Shown here: positions 13,301-32,452 of the stretch, piece by piece | Layout of the letters: every line of letters begins with the position of its first letter | How positions within the stretch are numbered: the first letter of the stretch is position 1 | Made by a program: the position numbers and the translations under genes | The notes under the pieces: generated by a model | Databases searched by the model: none | Told to the model about the DNA's origin: nothing | What the model saw: the letters and a program-made list of their open reading frames with translations, nothing else | Source: Clostridia bacterium | GTDB lineage: Bacteria > Bacillota > Clostridia > Oscillospirales > CAG-272 | DNA length: 46,237 bases | Direction: 5' to 3' | Assembly (NCBI GenBank): GCA_017503285.1 | Contig: JAFVTH010000020.1 | Coordinates: 1 to 46,237 of the forward strand

Positions 13301-13527
13301 TGTTTTAACCTCAATATCGTTAGTTGTCTAACGTTTTATATGCAGAACAAAAGAAAAAAGTTATGAATTTTAAGAGTATATGCTTGAGAAATAAACAAAT
13401 AAACGTCAAAAATAGAGATAATAAGGGTTAAAAGTGTTAAAAAAGTTATGAATAGTTAGAAATTAAGGGTGGTATAAGAGGAGCAAATTATGCTAGAAAA
13501 CTAGTGGTATAAGCAGTCAAATACAAA

Positions 13528-13543
13528 TGTTTCACGTGGAACA
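13528..13543. other. parS site 1
   Basis: TGTTTCACGTGGAACA, exact match to the Firmicute parS palindrome bound by Spo0J/ParB. Confidence 0.95.
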
Positions 13544-13903
13544 CGATTAATTTTAGTAGTAATCAGGGGTAAAAATTGCTTTGAAAGGGCAAATAGAACT
13601 CTTCTCTACGCATATGAATAGAAATATCGCAAGCTAACTGACCAATCAGCGAAAAGGAAAGAGGATATAAACGTAGTTAAAAGAACGGAAGCAAACGCCA
13701 TAATTGGTGGCACCAAATAACAGGTATTTTAAGGCATAAAAAGTGTTGTTTTTTGGACTTGAATTATAAATATATCCGGTTGGTGGGTGTGTGGTATCAA
13801 TGTCGTTCTTGTCGGTGTGTGGGTTATCAATGTCGTTCATCGTATTTGGGTAGGTTGTGGGGACTCAGGACCGAATCTTCCATCCGTCACGCAAGGCTAC
13901 TTT

Positions 13904-13919
13904 TGTTTCACGTGGAACA
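13904..13919. other. parS site 2
   Basis: TGTTTCACGTGGAACA, exact parS, 376 nt after site 1. Confidence 0.95.
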
Positions 13920-14017
13920 AAGCGGAAATTCGCGACGCGATATAGGGAATAAGAGGCAGGATTATAATAGCTAACAAGCAATAGGATATTTGATTGATTT
14001 TAACAGAAAAACAAGTG

Positions 14018-14033
14018 TGTTTCACGTGGAACA
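14018..14033. other. parS site 3
   Basis: TGTTTCACGTGGAACA, exact parS, 114 nt after site 2. Confidence 0.95.
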
Positions 14034-14087
14034 TCCCCGTCCGCGGGGTTAGTTAAATTAGGTTTTGCTTGGAGGCGAAACTGGTGG

Positions 14088-14103
14088 TGTTTCACGTGGA
14101 ACA
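14088..14103. other. parS site 4
   Basis: TGTTTCACGTGGAACA, exact parS, 70 nt after site 3. Confidence 0.95.
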
Positions 14104-14153
14104 ATTTGTTCGGGTGGAAAATCAAGGTATTTTGTAGACAGAAAGAGGGCGCG

Positions 14154-14169
14154 TGTTTCACGTGGAACA
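14154..14169. other. parS site 5
   Basis: TGTTTCACGTGGAACA, exact parS, 66 nt after site 4 and about 250 nt before soj. Confidence 0.95.
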
Positions 14170-14349
14170 AATCCAAGGCTATTCCTTCTTTTTGGTTTGA
14201 ATTGAAAAGCTAGGTAGCTAGGTAACAATACGAAAGCAAACAAAATTTAGGGGCGTTTCCGCTTGGTTTGTTTGATGGTTTGCTTATTTCTTTTGGTAGA
14301 ATGCTTTTTATGGGCAATGCAAAATTCTACAATTTTAGCTTTTTTAGTA

Positions 14350-16664: not shown

Positions 16665-16693
16665 TTGACAAGTGGTTGTTGTATGTGTATAAT
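16665..16693 (+). promoter_or_regulatory. perR promoter
   Basis: TTGACA (16665-16670), 17-nt spacer, TATAAT (16688-16693), both perfect. Confidence 0.85.
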
Positions 16694-16715: not shown

Positions 16716-16741
16716 AAGCCAACATTCAGAAAGGAGTGCTT

Positions 16742-17110
16742 ATGAGAGTTACACGTCAGAGAAGTGCCATTTTAGAGTTTTTGCGCTCCAAAAGGCATCA
16801 TTACAGCGCCACACAAATATATGATGCTGTAAGAGAGAAGATTCCAAATATAAGCCTTGGCACGGTTTACAGAAATCTTGCCTCGCTCCTTGAGGACGGC
16901 GAAATCATTTCTGTGGAAACCAGCGACAAGTGTGTGTACTATGACGGTTTTATTTCCGGCCATTCTCACTTTGTGTGTCAATGCTGCAAGGAAATTTACG
17001 ACTTTCCGTTGGAAAGCACCACCTCAGAGCCTGAAAAGGCAGGCTTCACGGTGTCAAATCAAAGAGTTGTTTATTACGGCGTGTGCAAGATGTGCAATCA
17101 GTCAAAATAG
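16742..17110 (+). CDS. perR: Peroxide-sensing repressor PerR (Fur family)
   Basis: 122 residues, ATG at 16742 with AAGGAG 5 nt upstream. It has a winged helix (HHYSATQIYDAVREKIPNIS) and a metal-sensing half. All five PerR-type regulatory metal ligands can be placed: His20, Asp68, His74, His76 and Asp87. The structural zinc site is Cys79/Cys82 and Cys115/Cys118. In the family, Fe-catalysed oxidation of the histidines releases DNA. It is autoregulated by the palindrome in its promoter and is followed by a rubrerythrin, a standard PerR target in Clostridia. Length is a little short for the family. Confidence 0.88.
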   Translation: MRVTRQRSAILEFLRSKRHHYSATQIYDAVREKIPNISLGTVYRNLASLLEDGEIISVETSDKCVYYDGFISGHSHFVCQCCKEIYDFPLESTTSEPEKAGFTVSNQRVVYYGVCKMCNQSK

Positions 17111-17175: not shown

Positions 17176-17724
17176 ATGAAAAAGTTTAGATGTCCAGTTT
17201 GCGGTTACATTCACGAGGGAGATAGCGCACCGGAAAAGTGCCCACAATGTGGTGTTCCTGCATCAAAGTTTGTTGAGGTTGTTGAAAACAGCTACACATG
17301 GGCTGCAGAGCATATTGTTGGTGTGGCAAATGGTGTTGACCTGGAGATTATTGAGGGTCTTCGCGCTAACTTCATGGGCGAGTGCACAGAGGTTGGTATG
17401 TACCTTGCTATGGCAAGAGTAGCACACAGAGAAGGCTATCCGGAGATTGGTATGTACTACGAGAAGGCAGCATACGAGGAGGCAGAGCATGCAGCTAAAT
17501 TTGCAGAGCTTCTCGGCGAGGTTGTTACTACATCCACAAAGAAGAACCTAGAAATGAGAGTTGAGGCAGAAAACGGCGCAACACTTGGCAAGTTTGAGCT
17601 TGCAAAGAAGGCTAAGGAGCAAAATCTCGACGCAATCCACGACACCGTTCATGAAATGGCAAGGGACGAGGCAAGACATGGAAAGGCTTTTGAGGGACTT
17701 CTTAATAGATATTTTAAGAAGTAA
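17176..17724 (+). CDS. Reverse rubrerythrin (NADH peroxidase component)
   Basis: 182 residues with the domain order reversed relative to classic rubrerythrin. An N-terminal rubredoxin-like Fe(Cys)4 domain (Cys6, Cys9, Cys22, Cys25 in [20 protein letters not shown] and CG) precedes a four-helix diiron domain ([41 protein letters not shown]). It reduces hydrogen peroxide in the cytoplasm with electrons from NADH via rubredoxin reductases. It has an AAGGAG site, lies 65 nt behind perR and probably shares its transcript. A decayed copy of its last ~57 nt occurs at 24498-24556. Confidence 0.93.
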
Positions 17725-17737
17725 AATAAAATACATA

Positions 17738-17764
17738 GGGCAGAGAAATCTGCCCTTTTATTTT
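17738..17764 (+). terminator. Rubrerythrin terminator, repeated module copy 1
   Basis: GGGCAGA-GAAA-TCTGCCC then TTTTATTTT. The same hairpin with the same following sequence (leading into TTGACA) recurs near 24563 and 28151. Confidence 0.9.
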
Positions 17765-17768
17765 GAGG

Positions 17769-17797
17769 TTGACAAAGTGCGTTTTGTGGTATATAAT
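17769..17797 (+). promoter_or_regulatory. Promoter of structured RNA A
   Basis: TTGACA (17769-17774), 17 nt, TATAAT (17792-17797). No ORF follows within range, only a structured RNA. Confidence 0.8.
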
Positions 17798-17803
17798 AGT
17801 ATC

Positions 17804-17878
17804 AAGATTTCAGCCAATGCCTGTACTTTGTTTACAGGAACTCGATGGAAACGTCACTCGGGTTGAAATCTTTTTTAT
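17804..17878 (+). ncRNA. Structured small RNA A (family shared with RNA C)
   Basis: About 75 nt. A closing stem AAGATTTCAGCC (17804-17815) pairs with GGTTGAAATCTT (17861-17872). Inside are hairpin CCTGTA/TACAGG (17820-17838) and hairpin GATG-GAAA-CGTC with a GNRA tetraloop. The closing stem runs into a T-rich tail, so it doubles as terminator. The unit at 28217-28290 is homologous and keeps the GATGGAAACGTC hairpin exactly, while one closing-stem pair changes from G-T to A-T. I do not recognise a known family. Confidence 0.65.
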
Positions 17879-17887
17879 TTTTAATAC

Positions 17888-18017
17888 CTAAAGGGAATGG
17901 GTTTAACTTGTTCCCTTTTTTGTTGCACTTTTTCCACAAAAACATGGAATTTTTATGGAATTTTGGTCTTTGCAATTTTCAAAAAAGCTCAAATTATGGA
18001 AAAATTATAACATGAAT
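17888..18017. repeat. Intergenic element type 1, copy 1
   Basis: Hairpin GGGAA-TGGGTTTAACTTG-TTCCC plus T run, then TTTTTTGTTGCACTTTTTCC, ACAAAA, TGGAATTTTTATGGAATTTT and GCTCAAATTATGGAAAAAT. Related copies start near 21659, 22297 and 24716, each with the same order of blocks. The hairpin should terminate transcription; the rest is an AT-rich spacer before the next gene's promoter. Confidence 0.75.
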
Positions 18018-18216: not shown

Positions 18217-18248
18217 AAATTTATGGAAATGGAGGTTTGATTAGTGTA

Positions 18249-18509
18249 ATGGGGCATTCCACTGACGATTTTAAGGCAAAAATAATGAAGCGCCCGACCG
18301 CAACCGATATAAAACCAAAGAAACTGCAAAGTTTTTTAACTAGTTATGGCTTTGTCTTGAAGCGATCGAATGCTAGTCACTTTATTTACGAATATATAGA
18401 TACTGTAAAAAACAAAAAACATCAAATCGTTGTTCCTATGCACGACCCTATTAAACCTGCATACATTGATAAAATTAGAGATATAATATTAGAAGTGGAA
18501 GGTGAGTAA
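18249..18509 (+). CDS. hicA: HicA-like mRNA interferase toxin
   Basis: 86 residues from ATG 18249. The GGAGG at 18231-18235 is closer to an in-frame TTG at 18237, only 1 nt away and too close, so the exact start is unsure. The fold signature is a KPKKLQSFLTSYGFVLKRSN segment followed by SHFIYEY with the catalytic-type histidine. HQIVVPMHDPIKPAYIDKIR and DIIL then form the last strand and helix. HicA cleaves mRNA and is neutralised by HicB. It is larger than minimal HicA (~60 residues) because of an N-terminal ~25-residue extension. Confidence 0.85.
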   Translation: MGHSTDDFKAKIMKRPTATDIKPKKLQSFLTSYGFVLKRSNASHFIYEYIDTVKNKKHQIVVPMHDPIKPAYIDKIRDIILEVEGE

Positions 18510-18510
18510 A

Positions 18511-19005
18511 ATGAGAAATTACGAAATGAAAATTATTCCCAACACTGATGAAAATGGTAAAGTTTATTGGACAGCTTCATATCCTGCTATTGAGGGGTGT
18601 GTCGGTTGTGGCGAAACCGCAGATGAGGCGGTGAAAGAGGCACAAGAAAATTTAGAATTTTATCTTGAATTTTTACAAGAAGAAGGTGCGGAGATTCCTA
18701 ACGATTATGTTCCTGCCCAATATTCTGGAAAAATTGCTCTTCGCGTAGCAAAATCTACACACGAGAAAATTGCTAACATATCTAAAACAGAGGGAATCAG
18801 TATAAATTCTGTAATTTGTTCTGCCCTTGAAAACTTTTTGGGAATAAAAAAATATGAATTCGAGTTGGATAAAAAAATCCAAAGGATTCAAGAATTGACG
18901 GAACAAAATTTAATTTTGCAAGGATATACCGTACAAAACCAAAATGCTTTATGGTCTCTTTTAGCAGACCGAGAACTTATATATGAGGGAGCAGATGAAC
19001 AATGA
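18511..19005 (+). CDS. hicB: HicB antitoxin with C-terminal extension
   Basis: 164 residues, 1 nt after hicA. Residues 1-60 are the HicB partial RNase-H-like domain (VYWTASYPAIEGCVGCGETA, then DEAVKEAQENLEFYL). Residues 73-111 form a ribbon-helix-helix/Arc-type DNA-binding segment (KIALRVAKSTHEKIANISKT, then SINSVICSALENFLG). Residues ~115-164 are an extra tail: a charged helix and a hydrophobic patch around QNALWSLLADRELIYEG. Tails of this kind act as chaperone-addiction segments in toxin-antitoxin-chaperone modules, and a SecB-like gene follows with an ATGA overlap. It should bind the palindrome at 18199-18216. Confidence 0.88.
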   Translation: MRNYEMKIIPNTDENGKVYWTASYPAIEGCVGCGETADEAVKEAQENLEFYLEFLQEEGAEIPNDYVPAQYSGKIALRVAKSTHEKIANISKTEGISINSVICSALENFLGIKKYEFELDKKIQRIQELTEQNLILQGYTVQNQNALWSLLADRELIYEGADEQ

Positions 19006-21595: not shown

Positions 21596-21658
21596 GGTTT
21601 TGTGAAAATCAAATAGTATTTTCACGGTCAGAACCTTGTTACTCGCAAGGCTCGTAAT
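21596..21658 (+). ncRNA. Possible structured RNA G
   Basis: Two hairpins in a gene-free stretch: GTGAAAAT-CAAATAGT-ATTTTCAC (21602-21625) and CCTTG-TTACTCG-CAAGG (21634-21650). The terminator hairpin of the type 1 element follows directly. A TATAAT at 21586-21591 could be its -10 box, but there is no good -35, so this is the weakest of the RNA units. Confidence 0.35.
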
Positions 21659-21790
21659 AAAGGGAATTTGGGAAACCGATTCCCTTTTTTGTTGCACTTT
21701 TTCCATAAAAACATGGAATTTTTATGGAATTTTGAGCGTGTTAAATTTGGAAAAAGGTTAAAATATGGAATTTGTGATTATGGAAAGCAC
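21659..21790. repeat. Intergenic element type 1, copy 2
   Basis: Hairpin GGGAATTTGG-GAAA-CCGATTCCC with T run, then TTTTTTGTTGCACTTTTTCC, TGGAATTTTTATGGAATTTT and an ATATGGAATTTGTGATTATGG block. The hairpin part is identical to the one at 28678-28710. It ends just before a TTGAAA-N17-TATAAT promoter (21800-21828). Confidence 0.75.
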
Positions 21791-22256: not shown

Positions 22257-22296
22257 AACTTAGCCCAAGGTTGCTACAAGAAAAGAATCAATATAT

Positions 22297-22424
22297 AGGG
22301 AATGAGTTTAACTTGTTCCCTTTTTTGTTGCACTTTTTCCACAAAATAGTGGGATTTTTATGGAATTTTTAATTTTGATTTTTGAAAAAAGCTCAAAATA
22401 TGGAAAAATAAATTATGGAAAGTA
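22297..22424. repeat. Intergenic element type 1, copy 3
   Basis: GGGAATGAGTTTAACTTGTT-CCC hairpin plus T run, the TTTTTTGTTGCACTTTTTCC block, ACAAAATAGTGG, TTTTTATGGAATTTTTAATT and AAAAAAGCTCAAAATATGGA. It ends just before the GH127 promoter TTGAAA-N17-TACAAT (22431-22459). Confidence 0.75.
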
Positions 22425-22494: not shown

Positions 22495-24387
22495 ATGCAA
22501 AACACAGAAATAGAAAAAGCAATAGCGTGGAATCCGTGGCACGGTTGTAAAAAACCATTGGATATTGATGCAAGGAGACACTTTATGATATATGCAAATA
22601 CAACGGGACTTGTAAATTATGCCGCTCGTTTCTTTCAGGAAGAGCAGCTTAAGGATAGAAAGCTTTGGAAAAAGTTCGTAGATCAGTTTCGAAATCATAC
22701 CGATACGGTAAATGCCGGGTGGCGCGGTGAGTACTGGGGCAAGATGATGCGTGGCGGAGCACTTGTATATGAATATTCTCACGATGATGGGCTTTATGAC
22801 GTGCTCACCGAGACGGTTCAGGATATGCTGACGGTAGCAGAGAATGACGGTCGCGTTTCAACGTACAATCGCGAGACTGAATTTAACGGCTGGGATATGT
22901 GGTGCAGAAAGTACGTTATCCTTGGCTGTGAATATTATCTTGATATTTGTAGGGACGAGGATCTTCGCGCGGAAATCATATCATTTATCAAAGGCTGTGC
23001 CGACTACGTCCTTGCACATATTGGAAATGAGGAAGGCAAAAAGCCGATCACCGATACATCAAAGAATTGGCTTGGTATGAATTCCTGCTCGATCTTGGAG
23101 CCTTTTGTAAAGCTCTATCGCCTGACGGGTGAGGAAAAATATCTGGGTTTTGCAACCTATATCGTAGAGGAGGGCGGGGCCAAGGGCATCAATATCTTTG
23201 AGCTTGCTTACAAAAACGAGATCAAGCCGTATCAGTATGGCGTTTCCAAGGCTTATGAAATGATATCCTGCTTTGAGGGCTTGCTTGAATATTATTACGT
23301 TACGGGAATCGAGAAATATAAGACCGCGGTAATCAATTTTGCAAACGCTGTTATTGATACCGAAATATCGGTCATAGGCTGTTGCGGCATTACCCACGAG
23401 CTTTTTGACTACACTCGCGCGCGTCAGACCGTCAGATATGAGGGCGAATCTCAGGAGACCTGCGTAACCGTTACTTGGATGAAATTTTGTGCAAGACTTC
23501 TTACTCTTACAGGGGACTCAAGGTTTGCAGATTGTATGGAGCAATCCTTTTATAACGCTTATCTCAGCACTCTGAACGTGGAGCGCGTCGAAAGCCCTTA
23601 CATACAACAGAAGGCGAAAGGTCCTACCGTTTACACCTTTATTCCCGCTGATAGCTATAGTCCTCTGCTTTCGAGAAAGCGCGGAACGCCCATTGGAGGT
23701 ATACAATTTCTTCCCGACGGATCATATTACGGCTGTTGCGCTTGTATAGTGAGCGCAGGTGTCGGTATGTTTGCGAAGAACATAGTAATCGCAGACGAGA
23801 TCGGTGTTACCGTCAATTTCTTTGAGAGCGGCACGTATACAGTACAGTACGGCGACACTACCATTGAAATTAAGCAGGAAACCGATTATCCCTTGGATGG
23901 CAGAGTTAAGCTTCAAATAAGCACCGACAAGCCAACGCAATTTGCGCTTCGTATCCGTGTTCCTTCGTGGACGGGTAAGGGCGGCAGTTATGCTACGTAC
24001 AAAAGGGAATGGTTTAATGATGAGATCGTTGTCGAATATCCAATGAAACTTCACACGCAAACTCCAGAAGCGTGGGATGAAGAAACAATCTACGTCCCTG
24101 GTCCTACCGCAGTGCATCACGATGAAAACAACGACCATTATGTTACACTGTTCCGTGGTCCAATTACGCTGGCAGTTGATTCACGAATGGGCAAGGCAGC
24201 TGACTCGGTATTTGATTTTGAACCCATTGGCGAGATTTGTGCCGACCGTGAGATCGTTCGCGGTGTTCCGTGTCTTCTGAAGATGCGGTTTACTGATAAG
24301 AACGGTGGTGAATTCTATCTTGTAGATTATTCCTCAGCAGGAAAGGATTGGAATACTGAAATTGCTGCTTGGTTGAGAACTAAGTAA
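22495..24387 (+). CDS. GH127-family glycoside hydrolase (beta-L-arabinofuranosidase type)
   Basis: 630 residues of the GH127 (DUF1680) family: an alpha/alpha-barrel catalytic domain (about 1-430) followed by beta-sandwich domains. The zinc-cysteine site of the family can be placed: Glu and Cys in SQETCVTVTW, and the adjacent cysteines in YYGCCACIV, one of which is the catalytic nucleophile in characterised members. It probably removes beta-L-arabinofuranosyl residues from plant glycans. There is no signal peptide, so it acts in the cytoplasm on imported oligosaccharides. Arginine codons are mostly CGN, unlike the AGA/AGG of neighbours, which suggests recent transfer. No transporter is adjacent. 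Confidence 0.88.
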   Translation: MQNTEIEKAIAWNPWHGCKKPLDIDARRHFMIYANTTGLVNYAARFFQEEQLKDRKLWKKFVDQFRNHTDTVNAGWRGEYWGKMMRGGALVYEYSHDDGLYDVLTETVQDMLTVAENDGRVSTYNRETEFNGWDMWCRKYVILGCEYYLDICRDEDLRAEIISFIKGCADYVLAHIGNEEGKKPITDTSKNWLGMNSCSILEPFVKLYRLTGEEKYLGFATYIVEEGGAKGINIFELAYKNEIKPYQYGVSKAYEMISCFEGLLEYYYVTGIEKYKTAVINFANAVIDTEISVIGCCGITHELFDYTRARQTVRYEGESQETCVTVTWMKFCARLLTLTGDSRFADCMEQSFYNAYLSTLNVERVESPYIQQKAKGPTVYTFIPADSYSPLLSRKRGTPIGGIQFLPDGSYYGCCACIVSAGVGMFAKNIVIADEIGVTVNFFESGTYTVQYGDTTIEIKQETDYPLDGRVKLQISTDKPTQFALRIRVPSWTGKGGSYATYKREWFNDEIVVEYPMKLHTQTPEAWDEETIYVPGPTAVHHDENNDHYVTLFRGPITLAVDSRMGKAADSVFDFEPIGEICADREIVRGVPCLLKMRFTDKNGGEFYLVDYSSAGKDWNTEIAAWLRTK

Positions 24388-24497
24388 TGAAATTTGTGTT
24401 TTTGTGATTCTCAGCCCATTTTAAGTTCTCGCTTATACTTATAATAACTATTCCTTGAACATTCACAAAGCTTTTCACGACATACTAAGATTGTACG

Positions 24498-24556
24498 CGA
24501 CGAGGCAAGACAGGTCAAGGCATCCCCGGGACTTCTCAATAGATATTTTAAGAATA
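24498..24556 (+). pseudogene. Decayed fragment of the reverse rubrerythrin 3' end
   Basis: GACGAGGCAAGACA, GGGACTTCTCAATAGATATT and TTAAGAA align with rubrerythrin codons at 17665-17720, and the similarity continues through the terminator and promoter behind it (17738-17797 versus 24563-24622). Deletions and substitutions destroy the reading frame and the stop. No other part of the gene is present. It marks a past duplication, insertion or recombination junction. Confidence 0.75.
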
Positions 24557-24593: not shown

Positions 24594-24622
24594 TTGACAA
24601 ATGTGCATTTGCGGTATATAAT
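24594..24622 (+). promoter_or_regulatory. Promoter of structured RNA B
   Basis: TTGACA (24594-24599), 17 nt, TATAAT (24617-24622). Confidence 0.8.
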
Positions 24623-24628
24623 ACAAGC

Positions 24629-24706
24629 GTCATCTTGTTTGACACTAGATAGAGCAAGGTGCTGTATCTAAAGCGGGGGCCGCGATAGTTGGCTGCCCGC
24701 ACCTTT
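24629..24706 (+). ncRNA. Structured small RNA B with possible pseudoknot
   Basis: About 78 nt. CATCTTG (24631-24637) can pair with CAAGGTG (24655-24661). TAGATA (24646-24651), lying between those arms, can pair with TATCTA (24665-24670) outside them, the topology of an H-type pseudoknot. A final hairpin GCGGG ... CCCGC (24673-24700) with an inner GCC/GGC is followed by ACCTTTT. An alternative pairing GGTGC/GCACC would compete with the first stem. No ORF. The pseudoknot is an inference from complementarity. Confidence 0.55.
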
Positions 24707-24715
24707 TATAAACAC

Positions 24716-24835
24716 AGGGAATGAGTTTTTCTCGTTCCCTTTTTTGTCGCACTTTTCCACAAAATAGTGGAATTTTTAATTTTGATTTTTCAAAAAAGGT
24801 CAAATTATGGAACTTGTGATTATGGAAAGTTTTTA
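24716..24835. repeat. Intergenic element type 1, copy 4
   Basis: AGGGAATGAG-TTTTT-CTCGTTCCCT hairpin plus T run, then the TTTTTTGTCGCACTTTTCC block, ACAAAATAGTGG, a TTTAATTTTGATTTTTC block and a TCAAATTATGGAACTTGTG block. Here no gene follows on the plus strand; the next gene points the other way. Confidence 0.75.
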
Positions 24836-24939: not shown

Positions 24940-25803
24940 TTACCAGCCAAGCCACGGGATTTTTCCATCCAGGCATTGACTTGCCGTGTTTCCGTAAGGG
25001 GTTGTTGCATACCAGACGTTTTGATAATATTTACTGTAAGAGTTGTAATCATAACGGAACGGCTTTGTTCCGTCGTTGCTCATAGCGTCGGCAGGTACTC
25101 TGTAGGTATCGGACGTACCCGTCAAATCGTTCCATACCATATAACCGATATCATCTCTCCAGTGGTCGGTAGAAAATGACGGAGTAGTATCGGTTGAGCC
25201 GTATCTGACCTTTGGCGCAAAGCCGTGTAGGGCTTCGCAAACCAATTCGTATCCGATAATGTTTCTTTGAGCATCAAGCACGGGGGTGAATACCGTCAAG
25301 TACACGCAAATAGCGCCTGTTGGCCATTCGCTATCTGAATCAAGAGGGTCAAGGGTTGAATACATTGAAATTTCGCTGTACCCGTCCCAGTTCAAATCCT
25401 GATTTTTCAAAATGAACGATAGAGAGGTGTCTAACATAACGTCGCCGAAAAGCGCCTCTATTTGTGTGGCATAATTCTTGTCCATACTGCCAACATAAGG
25501 CGGTGCGCTGGGGTCCCAACGAACCTGAATGGTTTCGTTTAACAAATAGTCTCTTGAGTCTGTTACGATGTCGGTTTGGTATTCTTGATTCAGGATTTTA
25601 TCAAGTCTGTCAATCAAGTTCACTTCCTCGCTCGGCAGCTCCTCGGTTAAGTAATTGAAGCCCTTTATTTCAGGAATCATTTCGTGGTATGTCGCCTCGG
25701 CATCGTCATAATAACGCCAAACGGCGAAAACTCCGCCTGCAGAAAGGGAAATCACCAACACACATAAAACGAAAAGAGAAATCAACGTGTGATGTCTAAT
25801 CAT
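24940..25803 (-). CDS. Secreted protein with SipW-type signal peptide
   Basis: 287 residues from ATG 25803 (AAGGAGG 6 nt upstream); the start overlaps the stop of the signal peptidase gene (ATGATTAG). The signal peptide MIRHHTLISLFVLCVLVISL, then SAGGVFAVWRY, has the Gly-Gly-Val-x-Ala-x-Trp end typical of substrates of SipW-type peptidases, as in the upstream TasA-like protein. The mature part is acidic, rich in Tyr and Trp, with no recognised domain. Probably a surface or matrix protein processed by its neighbour. Confidence 0.82.
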   Translation of the reverse strand: MIRHHTLISLFVLCVLVISLSAGGVFAVWRYYDDAEATYHEMIPEIKGFNYLTEELPSEEVNLIDRLDKILNQEYQTDIVTDSRDYLLNETIQVRWDPSAPPYVGSMDKNYATQIEALFGDVMLDTSLSFILKNQDLNWDGYSEISMYSTLDPLDSDSEWPTGAICVYLTVFTPVLDAQRNIIGYELVCEALHGFAPKVRYGSTDTTPSFSTDHWRDDIGYMVWNDLTGTSDTYRVPADAMSNDGTKPFRYDYNSYSKYYQNVWYATTPYGNTASQCLDGKIPWLGW

Positions 25804-26944
25804 TGTCGCCCTCCTTTGACTCATGTGCTTGGTCTTGAAGAAGCTTCAAGGCTCCGCCTGCTTCGATGATTGCTCTGCGAGCGGGGTCTGTGCAATAGTG
25901 AGCGTGTACTGTCAAGCGCTTGCTCAGCTTTCCTACCGAAATGATTTTCAAGCGTTCGCTTGCAGGTCTTATCAAGTGCTTTTCCTTCAAGGAGGAAACA
26001 CTTACGACGTCGTCATCCTGATAGTGTCTGTCAAGCACGTTCGTGCCAACCGAGCAAAGTCTATTATTATCGGCGTACTGAAAGATCCTTAACTGTTGAG
26101 GTATCAGCTTATAAAATCTGAAATTCGGGCTCTTAGCATCCTGCTCGTTCTTTGTTTCACAGGGGAACAAAATGGCTAAGCGCTTTTTCTTTTCGTTTTC
26201 GATTAGTCTTTCAACTATTGGCGAAATAATCATTCCGAACACGATAAGTAAAACGCAAAGCCAGCCGGCAGGGGATTGCAGGAATAGCAAAAAGCTTCCT
26301 ACGTACTGAATTCGCTGTCCCTCGTAAATTCCCTTCATTTGACTGTAAAGAACGGGGAATTGGTCGGCACGCTCGTTTGCATCTCCTTGCAAAAGGAAGT
26401 GTCGTTCGTTAGGATGCTTTTCGTTTGGCTCCTCGATTCCGACAATACGGTGAATAATATATATATCGTCTTGCTTGTATACAACGATATCGTACAGCTC
26501 CAAATCCTCTTCTTCAGGTATATGGTTGCAAATTACGACATCGAACATTTGAAACTGATCGTCAAGACCGTACAGGAAAAGATGCTCGTTTTTGGCATTC
26601 TTTTTAGCCATGGACTCGCTCTTGACAACCTTAATTGACGGAATTCCGTTAGCGGGTCTGTCCTCCGTTGCGCGAACATAAATGGCAAAAGCGAACGCTC
26701 CTATCAGTATCAAGCAAAGTATCAGGGATAAAATCCTGTTGAACCAAAGTATGGCTTGACTCAGATTCTTGTTTTTATTCAATTGTTTTTCTTTTTCTTT
26801 TTTTATTGCTTCGTCCCTGTGTCCAAATCTGATAAATTGGAGCTCCATTTTTGTTATGTGTCCGATAAGATACGAAAACATTGCCGTAAGCAGTACAAAA
26901 ACGATTAAGCACAGAACAAAGGTATAAATTTCAAATCCTGTCAT
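25796..26944 (-). CDS. SipW-type signal peptidase fused to a ribosomal L15-like domain
   Basis: About 382 residues. An N-terminal membrane segment is followed by a basic linker and a second membrane span, then the S26B peptidase core: SESM nucleophile (Ser111 from this start), IIHRIVGI with the general-base His165, and LLQGDAN. A third membrane span (GWLCVLLIVFGMIISPIVER) follows. The C-terminal ~110 residues form a soluble domain resembling the globular half of ribosomal protein L15 (KLIPQQLRIF, a VLDRHY strand, GKLSKRLTVHAHYCTDPARR, then AIIEAGG). The start is ambiguous: an upstream ATG (26983) lies inside a perfect hairpin CCCATG-GAAA-CATGGG, while ATG 26944 has AAGAGG close by. It likely matures the two neighbouring secreted proteins. 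Confidence 0.8.
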   Translation of the reverse strand: MTGFEIYTFVLCLIVFVLLTAMFSYLIGHITKMELQFIRFGHRDEAIKKEKEKQLNKNKNLSQAILWFNRILSLILCLILIGAFAFAIYVRATEDRPANGIPSIKVVKSESMAKKNAKNEHLFLYGLDDQFQMFDVVICNHIPEEEDLELYDIVVYKQDDIYIIHRIVGIEEPNEKHPNERHFLLQGDANERADQFPVLYSQMKGIYEGQRIQYVGSFLLFLQSPAGWLCVLLIVFGMIISPIVERLIENEKKKRLAILFPCETKNEQDAKSPNFRFYKLIPQQLRIFQYADNNRLCSVGTNVLDRHYQDDDVVSVSSLKEKHLIRPASERLKIISVGKLSKRLTVHAHYCTDPARRAIIEAGGALKLLQDQAHESKEGDND

Positions 26945-27018
26945 ATGCCTCTTGTAATTAAATGCAAGACCCCATGTTTCCATGGGATCTGCGATTTATT
27001 TAATAAGTTATTTTTTAA

Positions 27019-27603
27019 TTATGCAGCAGGAGCAACCTTTACTCTGAACTTAACGTCTTGGATAACTTCCTTGAATTCCTCGTATTCATCCTGTGTTGGT
27101 AGGTGGAAGCTGCCAATTGAGATAGCATCCTCTATTGTAGCTGCTGTGATTGTGTATGTGTAGTACTCACCGCTGTTGTGCTCGGTCCAATCGGCCTCTG
27201 TGAGAACAACTGCGAAGTTAGGGTCGATTGTATAAATAGTAGTGCCATTGTATGTGCCTGCGGTAGAGCTTGCGAGCTCAACGGTGAGAGTAGCGTTTAA
27301 TGCATTTGCGAGCATATCGTCGCTAATATCTCCCTTAGGAGTGAATACTAACGTAATTGAGCCTGTACCCCAAGCGATTGTTGTAATCTTGGTGTCCTGT
27401 GAATCCGGTTCAACAGCAAAGTCTAGGCTGTTTTCTGTGAATGAGTATGAACCTGAGTTTCCTTCGTGGTCGATGCCGCCCATCTTTGAAACAAACGGCT
27501 CTGTTTGTGCGTCGATTTGATTTCCGGAATAAATCCATGTTGCGTATACGCCACCAACGGTGAGAAGTACACATAGCGCGATTAAAACACTAAGTTTTTT
27601 CAT
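27019..27603 (-). CDS. TasA/camelysin-like secreted protein
   Basis: 194 residues, ATG 27603 after GGAAAGG. The SipW-type signal peptide is MKKLSVLIALCVLLTVGGVY, then ATWIYSGN. The mature part is beta-rich with alternating Thr/Val strands and small residues, ending in VKFRVKVAPAA. Composition and signal resemble TasA/camelysin-family fibre or surface proteins, which depend on a SipW peptidase, and such a peptidase gene follows at once. It is the first gene of the operon and probably the most expressed product. Fibre formation is an inference. Confidence 0.75.
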   Translation of the reverse strand: MKKLSVLIALCVLLTVGGVYATWIYSGNQIDAQTEPFVSKMGGIDHEGNSGSYSFTENSLDFAVEPDSQDTKITTIAWGTGSITLVFTPKGDISDDMLANALNATLTVELASSTAGTYNGTTIYTIDPNFAVVLTEADWTEHNSGEYYTYTITAATIEDAISIGSFHLPTQDEYEEFKEVIQDVKFRVKVAPAA

Positions 27604-27651
27604 TATTGTTTTTTCCTTTCCGCTGAAATTATTAATCTTATCAGCAAGGCT

Positions 27652-27680
27652 ATTATAAAATAAGATTTATTTATTGTCAA
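27652..27680 (-). promoter_or_regulatory. Promoter of the TasA-like/signal peptidase operon
   Basis: Minus strand: TTGACA (27675-27680), 17 nt, TATAAT (27652-27657). Confidence 0.8.
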
Positions 27681-27719
27681 GCATTTTTCGTTACAAAAGT
27701 AAAATATTCTGCGAGGGAA

Positions 27720-28130
27720 TTAAGAAATGATTTCATCTTCATCATCTATCTTCATTTTGGGCATATGTATTTTAGAGTTCTTATTTACACACAGAGTATT
27801 GTATTTATCTACATCTAAATACCCTCTTGAATAAGCCTGACCGAAAATTAAATAAAACATTTTTAGGAACGATTCAACATATTTAAAGGCTCTACCTTCT
27901 TCATAATAAAGCTCACTCAAATAATCAACCACTTGGGAAACACTTATATCATCAATATACTTTTTACCAAACCTTTTAAAGATATGATTCTTCCACAAAC
28001 TGTCTTGTTTTCTGGTGGTGCCATATGGCTTTCCATACCTCCCCTTCTCACAGTATTCTAAGTAAACCTCTTTTACTGTATATCTCTTCTTTTTGGGGCT
28101 CATAGGTATATCTAATTCACACAAAGACAA
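27720..28130 (-). pseudogene. Truncated tyrosine-recombinase integrase
   Basis: About 136 residues. They match the N-terminal SAM-like core-binding region of phage/transposon integrases (YTVKEVYLEYCEKGRYGKPY, then TRKQDSLWKNHI, FKRFGKKYIDDISVSQVVDY, GQAYSRGYLDVDKYN). The frame stops after KMKIDDEDEIIS, just where the catalytic domain with its R-H-R-Y residues should begin. At the other end the frame runs back into the GGGCAGA terminator repeat without a clear start. Both ends are lost, so it cannot be active. It is the only recombinase trace in the accessory region. Confidence 0.75.
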
Positions 28131-28150
28131 AGCCCTCTTCTTGCTTTTAA

Positions 28151-28177
28151 GGGCAGAGAAATCTGCCCTTTTATTTT
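28151..28177 (+). terminator. Terminator, repeated module copy 3
   Basis: GGGCAGA-GAAA-TCTGCCC then TTTTATTTTGGGGTTGACA, the same hairpin and follow-on as at 17738 and 24563. Confidence 0.85.
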
Positions 28178-28181
28178 GGGG

Positions 28182-28210
28182 TTGACAAAAAGTGTTTTAT
28201 AGTATATAAT
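28182..28210 (+). promoter_or_regulatory. Promoter of structured RNA C
   Basis: TTGACA (28182-28187), 17 nt, TATAAT (28205-28210). Confidence 0.85.
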
Positions 28211-28216
28211 GACTAC

Positions 28217-28290
28217 AAGATTTCAACCAATGCCTGTGCAGTTATCTCAGGAAATTGATGGAAACGTCGCTCGGGTTAAAGTCTTTTTTC
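28217..28290 (+). ncRNA. Structured small RNA C (homologue of RNA A)
   Basis: Closing stem AAGATTTCAACC / GGTTAAAGTCTT (28217-28228 with 28274-28285) contains one mismatch and one G-U pair. A CCTG/CAGG hairpin and the GATG-GAAA-CGTC tetraloop hairpin lie inside. It has the same length and layout as RNA A 10.4 kb away, with changes concentrated in loops. A T tract ends it, and the next -35 box follows within 1 nt. Confidence 0.65.
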
Positions 28291-28319
28291 TTGACAAAAT
28301 GTTCTTTTCGATATATAAT
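28291..28319 (+). promoter_or_regulatory. Promoter of structured RNA D
   Basis: TTGACA (28291-28296), 17 nt, TATAAT (28314-28319). Confidence 0.85.
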
Positions 28320-28325
28320 AAAAAC

Positions 28326-28377
28326 AGCAGTTGCCCTCAGGCGACACCACTCACTCCAAGGAGTGAGTTATTTTTTT
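28326..28377 (+). ncRNA. Structured small RNA D
   Basis: About 50 nt: hairpin GTTGCC-CTCA-GGCGAC (28330-28345), then terminator hairpin ACTCACTC-CAAG-GAGTGAGT (28349-28368) with TATTTTTTT. Too short for a protein. The next ~50 nt (28378-28427) show nothing recognisable. Confidence 0.65.
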
Positions 28378-28427
28378 GATAATTTGCAAGCTGTGCCGTC
28401 GAAAAAAGCTGTGTCTTAACAATAGGC

Positions 28428-28456
28428 TTGACAGAACAGGGCTTATGGTATATAAT
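28428..28456 (+). promoter_or_regulatory. Promoter of structured RNA E
   Basis: TTGACA (28428-28433), 17 nt, TATAAT (28451-28456). Confidence 0.85.
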
Positions 28457-28461
28457 GATAT

Positions 28462-28564
28462 CATGGTAGCGAACTCAACCAAGGGTTGTTTAGTCGCCTT
28501 TGTGCGACCCGCAACGCGGAAACTATTGTTTCTGCGCCGAGGCAATTAAGCCTCGGCTTTTTTA
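28462..28564 (+). ncRNA. Structured small RNA E, four tandem hairpins
   Basis: About 100 nt made of four consecutive hairpins: CAACC-AAG-GGTTG (28476-28488), GTCGC-CTTTGT-GCGAC (28493-28508), CGCGGAAAC-TATT-GTTTCTGCG (28515-28536) and the terminator GCCGAGGC-AATTAA-GCCTCGGC (28536-28557) with seven T. Almost every base after the first 14 is in a stem or tight loop. No ORF. I do not recognise a family. Confidence 0.7.
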
Positions 28565-28571
28565 TTTGGGG

Positions 28572-28600
28572 TTGACAAATTGTTTATAATAATGTATAAT
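28572..28600 (+). promoter_or_regulatory. Promoter of structured RNA F
   Basis: TTGACA (28572-28577), 17 nt, TATAAT (28595-28600). Confidence 0.85.
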
Positions 28601-28606
28601 AATATC

Positions 28607-28667
28607 GAATTAAGGGATGCCGAAAGGCTTACCTTCCCTCTTGGCGAAAGTCAAGAGGATTTTTATT
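28607..28667 (+). ncRNA. Structured small RNA F with two GNRA tetraloops
   Basis: About 60 nt: outer AGGGA/TCCCT with inner GCC-GAAA-GGC, then CCTCTTGGC-GAAA-GTCAAGAGG followed by TTTTTATT as terminator. Both apical loops are GAAA. Confidence 0.65.
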
Positions 28668-28677
28668 CTAAATGCAT

Positions 28678-28710
28678 AAAGGGAATTTGGGAAACCGATT
28701 CCCTTTTTTG
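28678..28710 (+). terminator. Second terminator hairpin after RNA F
   Basis: GGGAATTTGG-GAAA-CCGATTCCC and a T run, the same sequence as the hairpin at 21661-21683 and followed by TTTTTTGCTGC, so a truncated copy of intergenic element type 1. Confidence 0.75.
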
Positions 28711-28756
28711 CTGCTTTTGAAGATTTTACACACAACACGGGGCAAGAGGAGCAGTA

Positions 28757-28795
28757 AAATGAAAAGGAACAAGCCTTTGCTTGTTCCTTTTTTGT
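28757..28795. terminator. Bidirectional terminator before the iron alcohol dehydrogenase
   Basis: AAAGGAACAAGC-CTTT-GCTTGTTCCTTTTTT, 11-12-bp stem with A/T runs on each side; it serves the minus-strand gene ending at 28796. Confidence 0.8.
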
Positions 28796-29950
28796 TTACC
28801 AAATTTTCTTTAGGATTTTTATAATATCTTCCTTTGTTGCCTTGCGTGGGTTTGTGGCGGTGCATCTGTCAAGGAGCGCAGCGTCTGCCATGGCGCTTAG
28901 CCTTGACTCATATTCCTCATAGGTTAGGTTAGGCACAGCCTCGTGAACGGTAACAGGCATACCAAGCTGAATTTGCATTGCGCGAATATAGAAGGCAAGC
29001 GCCTTTACGCAAGCAATATCATCATAGCCGGCAAGACCTATACGGCGAGACATGGTTGCATATTTTGCAACGCAGGGAGCTGGGCTTTCAAGGGCAAAGG
29101 TGTTTTCAGCAATACCGGAGTTAAAGCCGATAACGTCGGGAAGAACGATTGCGTTTGCGCGCCCGTGCGGAATGTGGAACTGTGCGCCAAGCTGATGTGC
29201 TATACTGTGGCAAATGCCAAGGGACACAGCATTAAAGGCAATGCCTGCAAGGCAGGATGCAATATGCATCTTTTCCCTTGCCTTGTTTTCGTGAGTTTTT
29301 GGATAGTTATATGAGCGCACAAGGTAGTGCTTGCAAAGAGAGGTTGCCTTTTCTGCGTACATATCCGAAAAGTAATCAGCCTCGGTGCTGACATAAGCCT
29401 CAAGGGCGTGTGTCAAAACGTCAAGACCTGTATCGGCTGTAATAGATGCAGGAACACTCTTTACCATTTCCACGTCGAGAATAGCCTCGTTTGGAAGAAG
29501 AAAATCGTCAATAATTGCGTGCTTTACGTTCTTTTGCGGGTCGGTAATAACGGCAAAGGACGTAACCTCACTGCCTGTGCCGCTTGTTGTAGGGATTGCA
29601 ATAAAGTGCGGGGCATAGTCAGCATTGTGGTTGTGCGCAAACAGGCGCACGCACTTAGCAAGGTCAATAGCAGAGCCGCCGCCAATGGCAATCAGACAAG
29701 GCGCCATTTCACGAAGAAGGGCAGTAACGCCGGAAACAACCTTATCAATGGTTGGGTCGGGCACAACGTCCGAATATACCTTATATTCTATATTAGCCGA
29801 GTCCAAATGCTTTGTAACAGCCTTAATAAGTCCGCTTGAAACAAGGAATGGGTCAGCAACGATAAATACCTTTTTATACTCCAGCTTGGCAAGACGCGCA
29901 AGGGCATTGCCTTCAAAGTGTATAGTGGTTTTTAGGTTACAGCTACGCAT
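28796..29950 (-). CDS. pduQ: Iron-containing alcohol dehydrogenase (PduQ-like)
   Basis: 384 residues from ATG 29950 (AGGAGG upstream; the open frame to 30100 is not used). It is a group III metal-dependent dehydrogenase: the nucleotide-binding GGGSAIDLAK, GTGSEVTSFAVITD, and iron ligands in TGLDVLTHALEAYVS and the two histidines of HQLGAQFHIPHGRANA. Next to a propanediol microcompartment it most likely reduces propionaldehyde to 1-propanol, recycling NADH, or lactaldehyde to 1,2-propanediol (FucO activity). It is divergent from the RpiR gene and shares the operator-rich gap. A promoter TTTACT-N17-TATAAT (29978-30006, minus) precedes it. Confidence 0.85.
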   Translation of the reverse strand: MRSCNLKTTIHFEGNALARLAKLEYKKVFIVADPFLVSSGLIKAVTKHLDSANIEYKVYSDVVPDPTIDKVVSGVTALLREMAPCLIAIGGGSAIDLAKCVRLFAHNHNADYAPHFIAIPTTSGTGSEVTSFAVITDPQKNVKHAIIDDFLLPNEAILDVEMVKSVPASITADTGLDVLTHALEAYVSTEADYFSDMYAEKATSLCKHYLVRSYNYPKTHENKAREKMHIASCLAGIAFNAVSLGICHSIAHQLGAQFHIPHGRANAIVLPDVIGFNSGIAENTFALESPAPCVAKYATMSRRIGLAGYDDIACVKALAFYIRAMQIQLGMPVTVHEAVPNLTYEEYESRLSAMADAALLDRCTATNPRKATKEDIIKILKKIW

Positions 29951-30084
29951 TTTGCACCTCCTGTAAAGATATAAGACATTATAGCATATATTTCCAAAAG
30001 AGTAAATACGTTTTTGAAAAAAAGATGAAAAAATCGTCATTTTTTTACAAAAAAATTTTTTCAAAAGTGTAAAAAGCGAAAAAA

Positions 30085-30369
30085 TGAAAATAATTTTCAA
30101 AGCTTTTCAAAAAAGTGAAAAAAATTTTCATTTTTCAAAAGCCGAGTGAAAACAAAAAATCAAGGCAAAAACACGGATTTTGAGGGGTTTTCAAAATGTT
30201 TATCCAAAATTTTGTGAAAAAAGTTGACAAATAAGTAATTTTATGCTAAAATCTGAATTGTGAAAGTATTTTTCATCAATATTGAAAATTGTTTTCATAA
30301 TTGAAACAAATCAAGACAAAAACACCTTGAAAAATGAAAATAATTTTCAAAAACCGAAATAAATTTTCA
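30085..30369. promoter_or_regulatory. Array of TGAAAATAATTTTCA operators in the divergent promoter region
   Basis: Two identical perfect 15-bp palindromes, TGAAAAT-A-ATTTTCA, lie at 30085-30099 and 30335-30349. One-mismatch versions occur at 30116-30130, 30261-30275 and 30283-30297, and a degenerate one at 30355-30369. The 443-nt gap has no gene. RpiR-family regulators commonly bind GAAA...TTTC palindromes, and the adjacent gene encodes one, so autoregulation plus control of both flanking units is likely. Confidence 0.75.
30224..30252 (+). promoter_or_regulatory. Promoter of rpiR-BMC operon
   Basis: TTGACA (30224-30229), 17 nt, TAAAAT (30247-30252). One operator-like palindrome (30261-30275) covers the expected start of transcription. 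Confidence 0.8.
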
Positions 30370-30393
30370 AAATTCACAGAAAGGAGGCAAATT

Positions 30394-31233
30394 TTGAACA
30401 GGACTTTACTGCAAGCGCAGCTCATGTATGACGATATGGGCCGCTCTGAGAAGAAGGTCGCTGATTGGTTGTTTTCTCACTCCGGTGAGGTGCTTCCCTA
30501 TTCCATAACAGATCTTGCCTCCAAGTGTGAGAGCAGTGAGGCAACTATTGTTCGTTTTTCAAAGAGGCTGGGCTGTCGAGGCTATCAGGATTTGAAGCTG
30601 ACCCTGGCCAAGGAGCATGAAAAGAAGGTTGTCGCCCCCGTGATAACCGGCAACGATGACTGCTTTGCTATTTTTGAAAAGGTATGTAACGATGCGTATA
30701 TGTCCTTAGAGCGAACAAAGAAAACCCTCTCGGCAGAGAATATGTCCCGTGCTATGGAGGCAATTACCAAGGCAAGGCGTGTTGTACTGATAGGACTTGG
30801 TACATCGGCGCAGGTTGCAGAGGACGCAAGCAACAAGCTTTTGCGCGCAGGCTGTAACTCAAGCGCATACGCCGACACCCATATGCAGGCAATTGCAGTT
30901 TCTCAGCTGAAGGCAGGAGATGTGGTTATAGGAATCTCTCAATCCGGCTCGTCCAAGGATATTGTGGAATCTATGAAGGTGGCAAGGGCCCACGGCGCAA
31001 CCACCATCTCAATTACCTCAAGGGAGCGCTCGCCAATTGCAAGGCAAAGCGATATTTTGCTCCTTACGGACACGGAGGAAACAATGCACAGCTCGTTAGG
31101 ACTTAATTCCCATATTTCAAGGCTTATATTAATAGACGCCTTGTGCTACAAAATAGTTTATCAAAATGATGCCCTTGCCCACAGCGTTGGGGAAAGTGAG
31201 GCAGAGCTTCAATCGAAGCGAATCGTAGAATAA
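30394..31233 (+). CDS. RpiR-family sugar-phosphate-responsive regulator
   Basis: 279 residues from TTG 30394, placed 6 nt after AAGGAGG. The in-frame ATG at 30334 overlaps an operator palindrome and has no SD. An N-terminal helix-turn-helix (YSITDLASKCESSEATIVRF) precedes a C-terminal SIS phosphosugar-binding domain (VVLIGLGTSAQVAEDASNKL, IGISQSGSSKDIVESMK). It probably senses a phosphorylated sugar such as fuculose-1-phosphate or rhamnulose-1-phosphate and controls the microcompartment operon that starts 28 nt downstream. Confidence 0.88.
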   Translation: MNRTLLQAQLMYDDMGRSEKKVADWLFSHSGEVLPYSITDLASKCESSEATIVRFSKRLGCRGYQDLKLTLAKEHEKKVVAPVITGNDDCFAIFEKVCNDAYMSLERTKKTLSAENMSRAMEAITKARRVVLIGLGTSAQVAEDASNKLLRAGCNSSAYADTHMQAIAVSQLKAGDVVIGISQSGSSKDIVESMKVARAHGATTISITSRERSPIARQSDILLLTDTEETMHSSLGLNSHISRLILIDALCYKIVYQNDALAHSVGESEAELQSKRIVE

Positions 31234-31261
31234 AATTACATTATTAATAAAGGAGAGAAAA

Positions 31262-32452
31262 ATGAAGGTTCTCGTTGTAAATGCGGGTAGCTCATCTCTC
31301 AAATATCAGCTCTTTGATATGGACAACGGGGGAGTTTTAGCAAAGGGCTTATGTGAGAGAATTGGCATTGACGGTGCTATCACCCATAAGCGACCCGGCA
31401 AGGAAAACTACAAGGCAAGCGCACCTCTTGAGGACCACAGGGCAGCAATTGAGCTTGTGCTAAGGCTGCTTTGCGACAAGGAGCTTGGTGTTATATCAAG
31501 CGTTTCCGAAATTGGCGCAGTCGGTCACAGAGTTGCCCACGGCGGCGAAAGGCTACGACAGTCAACCATTATCGGACAGAGCGAGATTGAGTACCTTGAA
31601 AGCATTGTGGAAATCAACCCACTGCACGGTCCGCCGGCAATAAGCGGAATCAAGGCGTGCAAGAGCGTTATGCCGGACGTTAAGCACGTAGGCGTGTTTG
31701 ACACATCTTATTATTCAACAGTTGAGGAAAAGGCATATATTTATCCTATTCCTTATGAGCTTTACGAAAAGTACAAAATCCGTCGCTACGGCTTTCACGG
31801 CACATCCCACAGATTTGTTTGCGGCAAGGAGATAAAGATGCTTGGAAACAAGGATGCAAGGGTAATTACCTGCCACCTTGGCAACGGCTCATCAATAACA
31901 GCCAGCATCGGTGGCAAAGCAGTTGACACCTCAATGGGCTTTACCCCGCAGGAGGGCGTTCCTATGGGAACACGCAGCGGCTCGGTAGACCCGACGGTTG
32001 TTACTTATATTATGAAAAAGGAAGGACTTACAGCCGATGAGGCTGAAAAGCTCCTTAACTCAAAATCCGGACTTCTTGGAGTTTCCGGTGTTTCAAGCGA
32101 CTGCCGTGATGTTCTCATAGCCCAAGGCGAGGGAAACAAGCGCGCAGGCTTGGCAATGGATATTCTAATCCATTACATTAAAAAGATTATAGGCTCTTAT
32201 ATTGCGGAAATGAACGGCGTTGATGCCCTTGTATTTACAGCAGGCATCGGGGAAAATGACGGCATTGTAAGAGATCTTATATGCAGGGATATGTCTTATC
32301 TCGGCATTGAGATTGATAACGATATCAATCTGAAGCTGGAAAGAGGCACACAGGCAGATATTACCAAGGCAGGCGCTAAGGTAAGAACCCTTGTTATCCC
32401 AACAGACGAGGAGTATATGATTGCCCTCGACACATTCAATCTTGTCAAATAA
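31262..32452 (+). CDS. ackA: Acetate/propionate kinase
   Basis: 396 residues, full-length acetokinase: NAGSSSLKYQLFDM, VGHRVAHGG, the GFHGTSHRFV block with active-site histidine, LGNGSSITA and FTAGIGEND. It takes the acyl-phosphate made by PduL (here mainly propionyl-phosphate) and makes ATP and propionate. AAGGAGAG precedes the ATG. It lies inside the BMC operon rather than beside pta, which supports a catabolic, compartment-linked role. It shows no encapsulation extension, so it probably works in the cytoplasm. Confidence 0.93.
   Translation: MKVLVVNAGSSSLKYQLFDMDNGGVLAKGLCERIGIDGAITHKRPGKENYKASAPLEDHRAAIELVLRLLCDKELGVISSVSEIGAVGHRVAHGGERLRQSTIIGQSEIEYLESIVEINPLHGPPAISGIKACKSVMPDVKHVGVFDTSYYSTVEEKAYIYPIPYELYEKYKIRRYGFHGTSHRFVCGKEIKMLGNKDARVITCHLGNGSSITASIGGKAVDTSMGFTPQEGVPMGTRSGSVDPTVVTYIMKKEGLTADEAEKLLNSKSGLLGVSGVSSDCRDVLIAQGEGNKRAGLAMDILIHYIKKIIGSYIAEMNGVDALVFTAGIGENDGIVRDLICRDMSYLGIEIDNDINLKLERGTQADITKAGAKVRTLVIPTDEEYMIALDTFNLVK

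Follow-up and report, generated by a model that had tools for sequence, protein, structure and literature searches.

Structured small RNA units as probable exchangeable cargo of a rubrerythrin-linked cassette array in a genus of Clostridia

Four short transcription units, here called RNAs C, D, E and F, lie back to back at positions 28151-28712 of the stretch of DNA analysed (46,237 nucleotides of a Clostridia genome, hereafter the window), and they are probably autonomous, trans-acting structured small RNA (sRNA) genes that form exchangeable cargo of a cassette array anchored by a rubrerythrin gene (rbr). The rbr-linked array is the larger feature that holds the RNA units. For comparison, 29 genomes of the genus were used, one per species. 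What this comparison shows, at the level of sequence, are the putative units themselves, the conservation of two further RNAs that occupy the array's RNA slot in other species (X and Y) and of their promoter hexamers, the pairing preserved in families A/C and E, and cassettes whose places shift from genome to genome.

The four-unit stretch opens with a terminator hairpin (28151..28174, repeat family D7), and this hairpin, like the units behind it, lies on the + strand. As the original prediction had stated, both reading of the sequence and a pattern scan identify four perfect TTGACA-N17-TATAAT promoters, all on the + strand, at 28182..28210 (RNA C), 28291..28319 (RNA D), 28428..28456 (RNA E) and 28572..28600 (RNA F), and each is followed by an ORF-free stretch of 50-110 nt and then by a terminator. 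Protein genes are absent, with zero ORFs of at least 80 aa and the longest one, of 64 aa, on the opposite strand. RNA C (28216..28289) was assigned to the family of RNA A by homology and covariation; RNA D (28326..28377) is predicted to fold into one hairpin followed by its terminator; RNA E (28463..28563) comprises, judging from folding and its relatives, a three-way-junction core (28469-28512), a hairpin and a terminator; and RNA F (28607..28709) has two hairpins with GAAA loops and a AAGGGAAT..ATTCCC terminator that is also present in the array repeat (see below). GAAA loops, which had been reported for several units, are found in P3 of A/C as well. Some details had to be corrected. A hairpin with a T-run terminates D, E and F, whereas C uses its own long P1 stem and then TTTTTT; of the four tandem hairpins seen in RNA E two were retained, the rest being predicted to form two arms on top of a short P1, which gives the three-way junction; and the perfect promoters, counted as five when that of either RNA A or RNA B was included, number six, since both RNA A (17769) and RNA B (24594) have one. 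RNAs A-F thus each combine their own promoter with an intrinsic terminator and lack an ORF, as expected for an autonomous sRNA gene.

The prediction was also right in holding that the four-unit array is not chance, although a perfect promoter is by itself nothing unusual in this genome. The whole window contains 9 perfect sites versus 0.07 expected from dinucleotide shuffles, including one at 16665 ahead of the Fur gene and two on the − strand (1763 and 27652); such shuffles are a poor background, because the perfect TTGACA-N17-TATAAT is the ordinary consensus of the genome (1.5 Mb in 32 contigs, completeness 75%), where it occurs 73 times and the reversed pattern never. Four sites per 560 nt are far above the genome rate (~0.03 expected), although the units are in part duplicated from one another. 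When the surroundings of all perfect sites (72 distinct ones) were sorted by a simple script, 50 stood ahead of an ORF and 22 did not. The latter comprise RNAs A-F, an A/C-family RNA on contig 6 of the same genome, six tRNA genes, one each of RNase P, a cobalamin riboswitch and an L10 leader, three terminator-bearing leaders before an ORF (L162, L295, L313) and three unlabelled sites (L293, L307, L310), of which the first resembles the last. Perfect promoters are ordinary in the genome, whereas those driving unlabelled stand-alone RNAs cluster in the window.

Folding against dinucleotide shuffles yielded z values of -5.3 for D, -4.8 for E, -4.7 for F, -4.6 for B and -3.7 for A. RNA C folded alone is no better than its shuffles (z -0.6; 52 of 200 as good), and hence its case stands on homology and covariation. 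Its homology to RNA A, already proposed in the prediction, amounts to 84% over 142 nt with the upstream terminator and promoter included. RNA A (17803..17876, + strand; perfect promoter by pattern scan at 17769..17797) appears from folding and alignment to be a three-way junction in which P1, a 12-position helix closing the whole RNA, doubles as terminator stem. A search with the family A model, limited to the genus, gave six copies in four genomes: three in the genome of the window (G000: A, C and the one on contig 6), and one each in G004 (contig C8), G020 (C35) and G013 (C39). In the hand alignment 123 of 127 cells are paired, with two-sided changes in 12 of 22 pairs and in all three stems, and none of 5,000 column shuffles matches this (shuffle mean 95.5); these numbers, like those for family E, overstate the certainty, because the alignments were fitted to the structure by eye and column shuffles ignore kinship. 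Nevertheless, compensatory changes across all three stems would be hard to explain otherwise. In all six copies P1 is directly followed by TTTT and P3 is capped by GAAA, GUAA or GCAA, and the junction after P2 reads AAC in five copies and AAA in C. The L2 loop varies among the members while the GNRA arm is constant. The copy in G013 (L034:4130-4222) has mostly lost its promoter and seems to be a decaying unit of this family. In the same genome, contigs C66, C46 and C39 (L032, L033, L034) start or end inside one RNA unit, which marks a break of the assembly where a unit is repeated.

Family E has five copies in four genomes, with 64 of 65 cells paired, four of 13 pairs compensatory and six of 5,000 column shuffles as good. 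The covariation asked for by the original prediction was thus found in the genomes of relatives for A/C and E, and for these families only; RNA Y has one compensatory pair, with 131 of 500 shuffles as good. An apical loop CUUUGU(U) is common to the otherwise different families E and, in part, A (L325, L331, L333, L339, L321, L328). X and Y were compared between four species (G015, G021, G040, G005; six pairs). The promoter hexamers are 100% identical in all six pairs, and X (94-100%) and Y (91-100%) nearly so, whereas identity drops to 47-88% in the 17-nt spacer, to 50-82% in the 60 nt upstream and to 37-70% in the 200 nt after Y; the rbr coding DNA is 79-84% identical. Selection on the X/Y RNA is favoured, because transfer of the region as a block would have brought the spacer along, yet the spacer has diverged. 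From these patterns, some RNAs of the array clearly appear to be under selection. RNA B (24628..24745, + strand; perfect promoter by pattern scan at 24594..24622) ends in the terminator of a repeat copy, is 91% identical over 122 nt to a sequence in G005, and is preceded by a remnant of the rbr 3' end (24490..24554, + strand, repeat family D8, 80%). It shares its 3' part alone, with one compensatory change, with an RNA in G042, their 5' parts being unlike. No relatives of RNAs D and F were found among the fetched loci. Beyond the genus, models of E and Y were run on 295 genomes from the same order, three of which belong to the genus, with only 17-19 candidates scored in each genome: E matched in one, its own genome, and Y in three, G015 plus short weak matches in G250 and G251, which leaves no confident match outside the genus. 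Exact patterns for X, Y, E and A, which miss diverged copies, had no match in IMG/VR.

The array that holds these units begins, on the + strand, with a Fur-family regulator gene as left border (16736..17110; PF01475; its cluster is found in 24 compared sequences including the window), followed by rbr as the anchor (17176..17724; PF21349/PF02915; in 25 of 29 genus genomes at E<=1e-60) and a terminator hairpin after rbr (17738..17761; GGGCAGA..TCTGCCC plus T-run; repeat families D5 and D7). This rbr-type terminator element also stands ahead of RNAs A, B and C. A repeat search placed four copies of a ~110-bp array repeat downstream on the same strand (17885..18001, 21658..21770, 22294..22405 and 24716..24812, the last being the one that ends RNA B). 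By eye, the copies contain a terminator and several TGGAA boxes in both orientations, which could serve as a common operator, and several carry a TTGAAA/TATAAT-type promoter for the next cassette. Cargo between the copies includes a HicA/HicB toxin-antitoxin-like pair (18237..19005, +; PF07927, PF15919/PF05534), for which PADLOC returned no match, and a GH127-like glycoside hydrolase (22495..24387, +; PF07944), a relative of which follows rbr and one repeat in G003. Just before RNA C, a short ORF on the − strand (27720..28130) encodes no more of a tyrosine integrase than its N-terminal SAM-like domain (PF14659); a longer relative with PF00589 is found in the array of G015 (L022:5709-6923). A 395-aa ORF at 25796-26983 has a C-terminal match to PF00828 (ribosomal protein L15/L18e), which is odd for a cassette protein. 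Upstream of the array, several GTTTCACGTGGAAC-like sites, which we take to be parS-like, lie at 13500-14170 beside parA/parB genes, suggesting a replication origin region.

Within the genus, the repeat occurs in 22 of the 29 genomes, in 69 rows, 42 on the contig with rbr and 27 on other contigs. On the rbr contigs all 42 are on the rbr strand and 41 are downstream of it, the exception being in G013. Maps of 22 stretches show that, where rbr is present, the order is fur, rbr and then genes interspersed with repeat copies, with cassettes occupying different places in different genomes. Further window cassettes with relatives elsewhere are the 135-aa ORF (relative in G004), the block at 24940-27603 (in G016) and the HTH protein (in ten other stretches). 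The cargo recognized by Pfam comprises glycoside hydrolases, an MFS transporter, a GmrSD-like protein and an RloB-like/AAA pair, whose AAA protein matches AbiLi at 4e-40 and whose RloB-like partner weakly matches AbiLii. The array therefore has exchangeable cassettes with repeats in one orientation. An integron integrase for it is unsupported: the integron-integrase model TIGR02249, run without a positive control, scored above cut-off in 0 of 28 genomes, and weaker matches of the generic recombinase kind, found in 26 of 28, occurred likewise in all 14 control genomes. Neither megablast of 25001-32000 nor blastn of the array matched a phage, and no plasmid match for the array was found. Two contigs from different genomes (G012:C37, L036, and G021:C9, L040) are both 24345 nt with matches at identical coordinates, which indicates either a shared element or cross-binning.

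Most RNA units of the array stand between the rbr-type terminator in front and the terminator of the repeat behind. The exceptions are D, E and F in the window, which follow other units, E in G013, which has no rbr-type terminator, and two units in G022, where this terminator is degenerate or absent. Of the 29 genomes, 16 gave a match to an 82-nt query that spans the terminator of rbr and promoter A, but the match reaches through the -10 box in only seven (its own included); in the remaining ones it comprises the terminator and, in some, the first part of the -35 box as well. By our own count, the slot and its surroundings hold ~12 mutually dissimilar sorts of RNA in twelve genomes: A/C, B, D, E, F, X, Y and single ones in G022, G016, G001, G013 and G008. 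Seven of the twelve sorts are confined to one genome each (D, F and the five singles) and are for this reason only candidate working RNAs, the more so as the G016 single folds no better than shuffles (z -0.15); the X+Y stretch of G015 hardly gains over them either (z -1.25). The overall interpretation of the original prediction, a modular sRNA or decoy system, is partly supported, namely in its modular sRNA part, which is backed by covarying or conserved RNAs for some units, by a domain common to otherwise different RNAs (the 3' part of B and the G042 RNA) and by unlike RNAs behind one terminator-promoter element across genomes.

In the reading we prefer, each unit would be transcribed from its own sigma-70-type consensus promoter, presumably strongly, and stopped by its own terminator, and the terminator-promoter-RNA-terminator slot would hold different RNAs in related lineages, with homologous recombination at the repeats as the likeliest route of exchange. 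The RNAs would then act in trans. Family A, with its GNRA arm and post-P2 junction kept while the letters of the helices change, may be recognized by its shape, whether by a protein or ligand or through a tertiary contact, a possibility we place slightly ahead of antisense action. The latter corresponds to a variant of the same reading, tentative and clearly less probable than the reading as a whole, in which the units are base-pairing sRNAs whose loops bind the start regions of mRNAs and whose U-tail is held by an RNA chaperone. An own promoter and a terminator with a U-tail are the ordinary layout of sRNAs, and the units have it; the loop CUUUGU, present in all five E copies and as CUUUGUU in two of six A copies, could be a seed. 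However, the complement AACAAAG is not enriched around the start regions predicted for the fetched loci (258 regions; 3 occurrences vs 4.2 for shuffled words, a weak test), and it is the L2 loop that differs in family A while the GNRA arm is kept.

A separate explanation is that the units are by-products of the array, with terminator-promoter pieces duplicated as insulators between cassettes or as aids to recombination and the RNA itself unimportant. The terminator and promoter are plainly duplicated along with the slots, the terminator of F is that of the repeat, and several units were seen only once. We nonetheless regard this as unlikely, as X and Y are better conserved than their promoter spacer and flanks, the pairing of A and E is preserved, and family A also occurs away from rbr (G004 C8, G020 C35) behind other near-consensus promoters. 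Less probable still are cis-acting leaders or orphan riboswitches controlling the next cassette: compact junctions that end in a terminator do resemble attenuators, and an ORF lies 142 nt past the -10 box of the family A copy on contig 6, but three more promoters separate RNA C from any gene, the gene 3' of RNA F (28796-30100) is on the opposite strand, and, by eye, the repeat itself supplies several cassette genes with a TTGAAA/TATAAT-type promoter. That the units are peptide-coding short mRNAs, or what is left of protein genes, is hardly credible. RNA A does open a frame of 24 codons from an ATG, but, by eye, two one-base deletions disrupt it in G004 while preserving P2, and G020 has ACG replacing the ATG; the tiny-ORF reading of RNA A was therefore rejected, and with it the remnant reading that the prediction had named as a refutation, for family A, D and F having no relatives in which to follow it.

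Extending the exchangeable-cargo reading, the slot adjoining rbr might be a dedicated exchange site for RNA genes where related lineages rotate strongly expressed, shape-binding RNAs, possibly a shifting repertoire of decoys in conflicts with phages or other mobile elements; we hold this to be a doubtful proposal. If true, AbiL-like, GmrSD-like and HicAB cargo would be the neighbours of such an "RNA cassette" platform in the array. With ~12 dissimilar RNA units at one chromosomal place in one genus, next to exchangeable protein cassettes, the mobility of RNAs of this kind can be seen, and comparing lineages with different slot contents offers a way to test RNA roles.

Among known RNAs, Rfam at gathering cut-off gave no match on the window. 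A permissive search of 28100-28800 returned BTnc231 at 30.9 bits versus a cut-off of 80.4; this match, which runs from the terminator of F across the following hairpin, was taken as chance. Skipping-rope RNA (RF02924, Rfam type Gene; sRNA) exceeds its cut-off of 36.7 bits in only two of the 29 genomes, both times in the rbr-linked array and after the same small ORF: in G042 (66.3 bits), ~11 kb downstream of rbr, and in G038, 841 nt downstream (L236:3617-3697 on the − strand and L258:2266-2346 on the + strand). Like units A-F, these copies have their own promoter (TTGACA-N17-TATACT) and terminator, and the one in G042 sits between a gene and a repeat copy; unlike the slot RNAs, they have no rbr-type terminator in front, and they therefore share the array, not the exact slot. 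RNAs A-F do not match RF02924 up to E = 1, and in a permissive search of 20 short stretches those without skipping-rope reached at best E 0.39. To our knowledge, structured sRNA classes that are known by shape, such as skipping-rope, have no known role. Skipping-rope RNA is drawn with a pseudoknot in the Rfam 14 paper (PMC7779021).

The precedent for mobile promoter-bearing sRNA cassettes is found in integrons. PMC8876359 describes non-coding (ORF-less) integron cassettes with promoters, some of which code for regulatory RNAs, e.g., sRNA-Xcc1, and the likeness to our units lies in promoter-bearing non-coding cassettes within an array; a HicA-HicB cassette is likewise reported, in PMC6557892, for an array of Treponema denticola. 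The rbr-linked array differs in that no integrase model passed the cut-off in the 28 genomes and in that many unlike RNAs are found in one kind of slot. No publication on an sRNA slot adjoining rubrerythrin was among the matches listed in a limited look, and within that scope an array slot with many dissimilar structured RNAs, without a detected integron integrase, in a genus of Clostridia would be a new form. Screens of microbiomes have found structured intergenic RNAs by comparison (PMC8040213), and an overlap of the array RNAs with the 3161 candidates of that paper is possible; what sets the present case apart from such candidates is that dissimilar RNAs occupy one exchangeable place.
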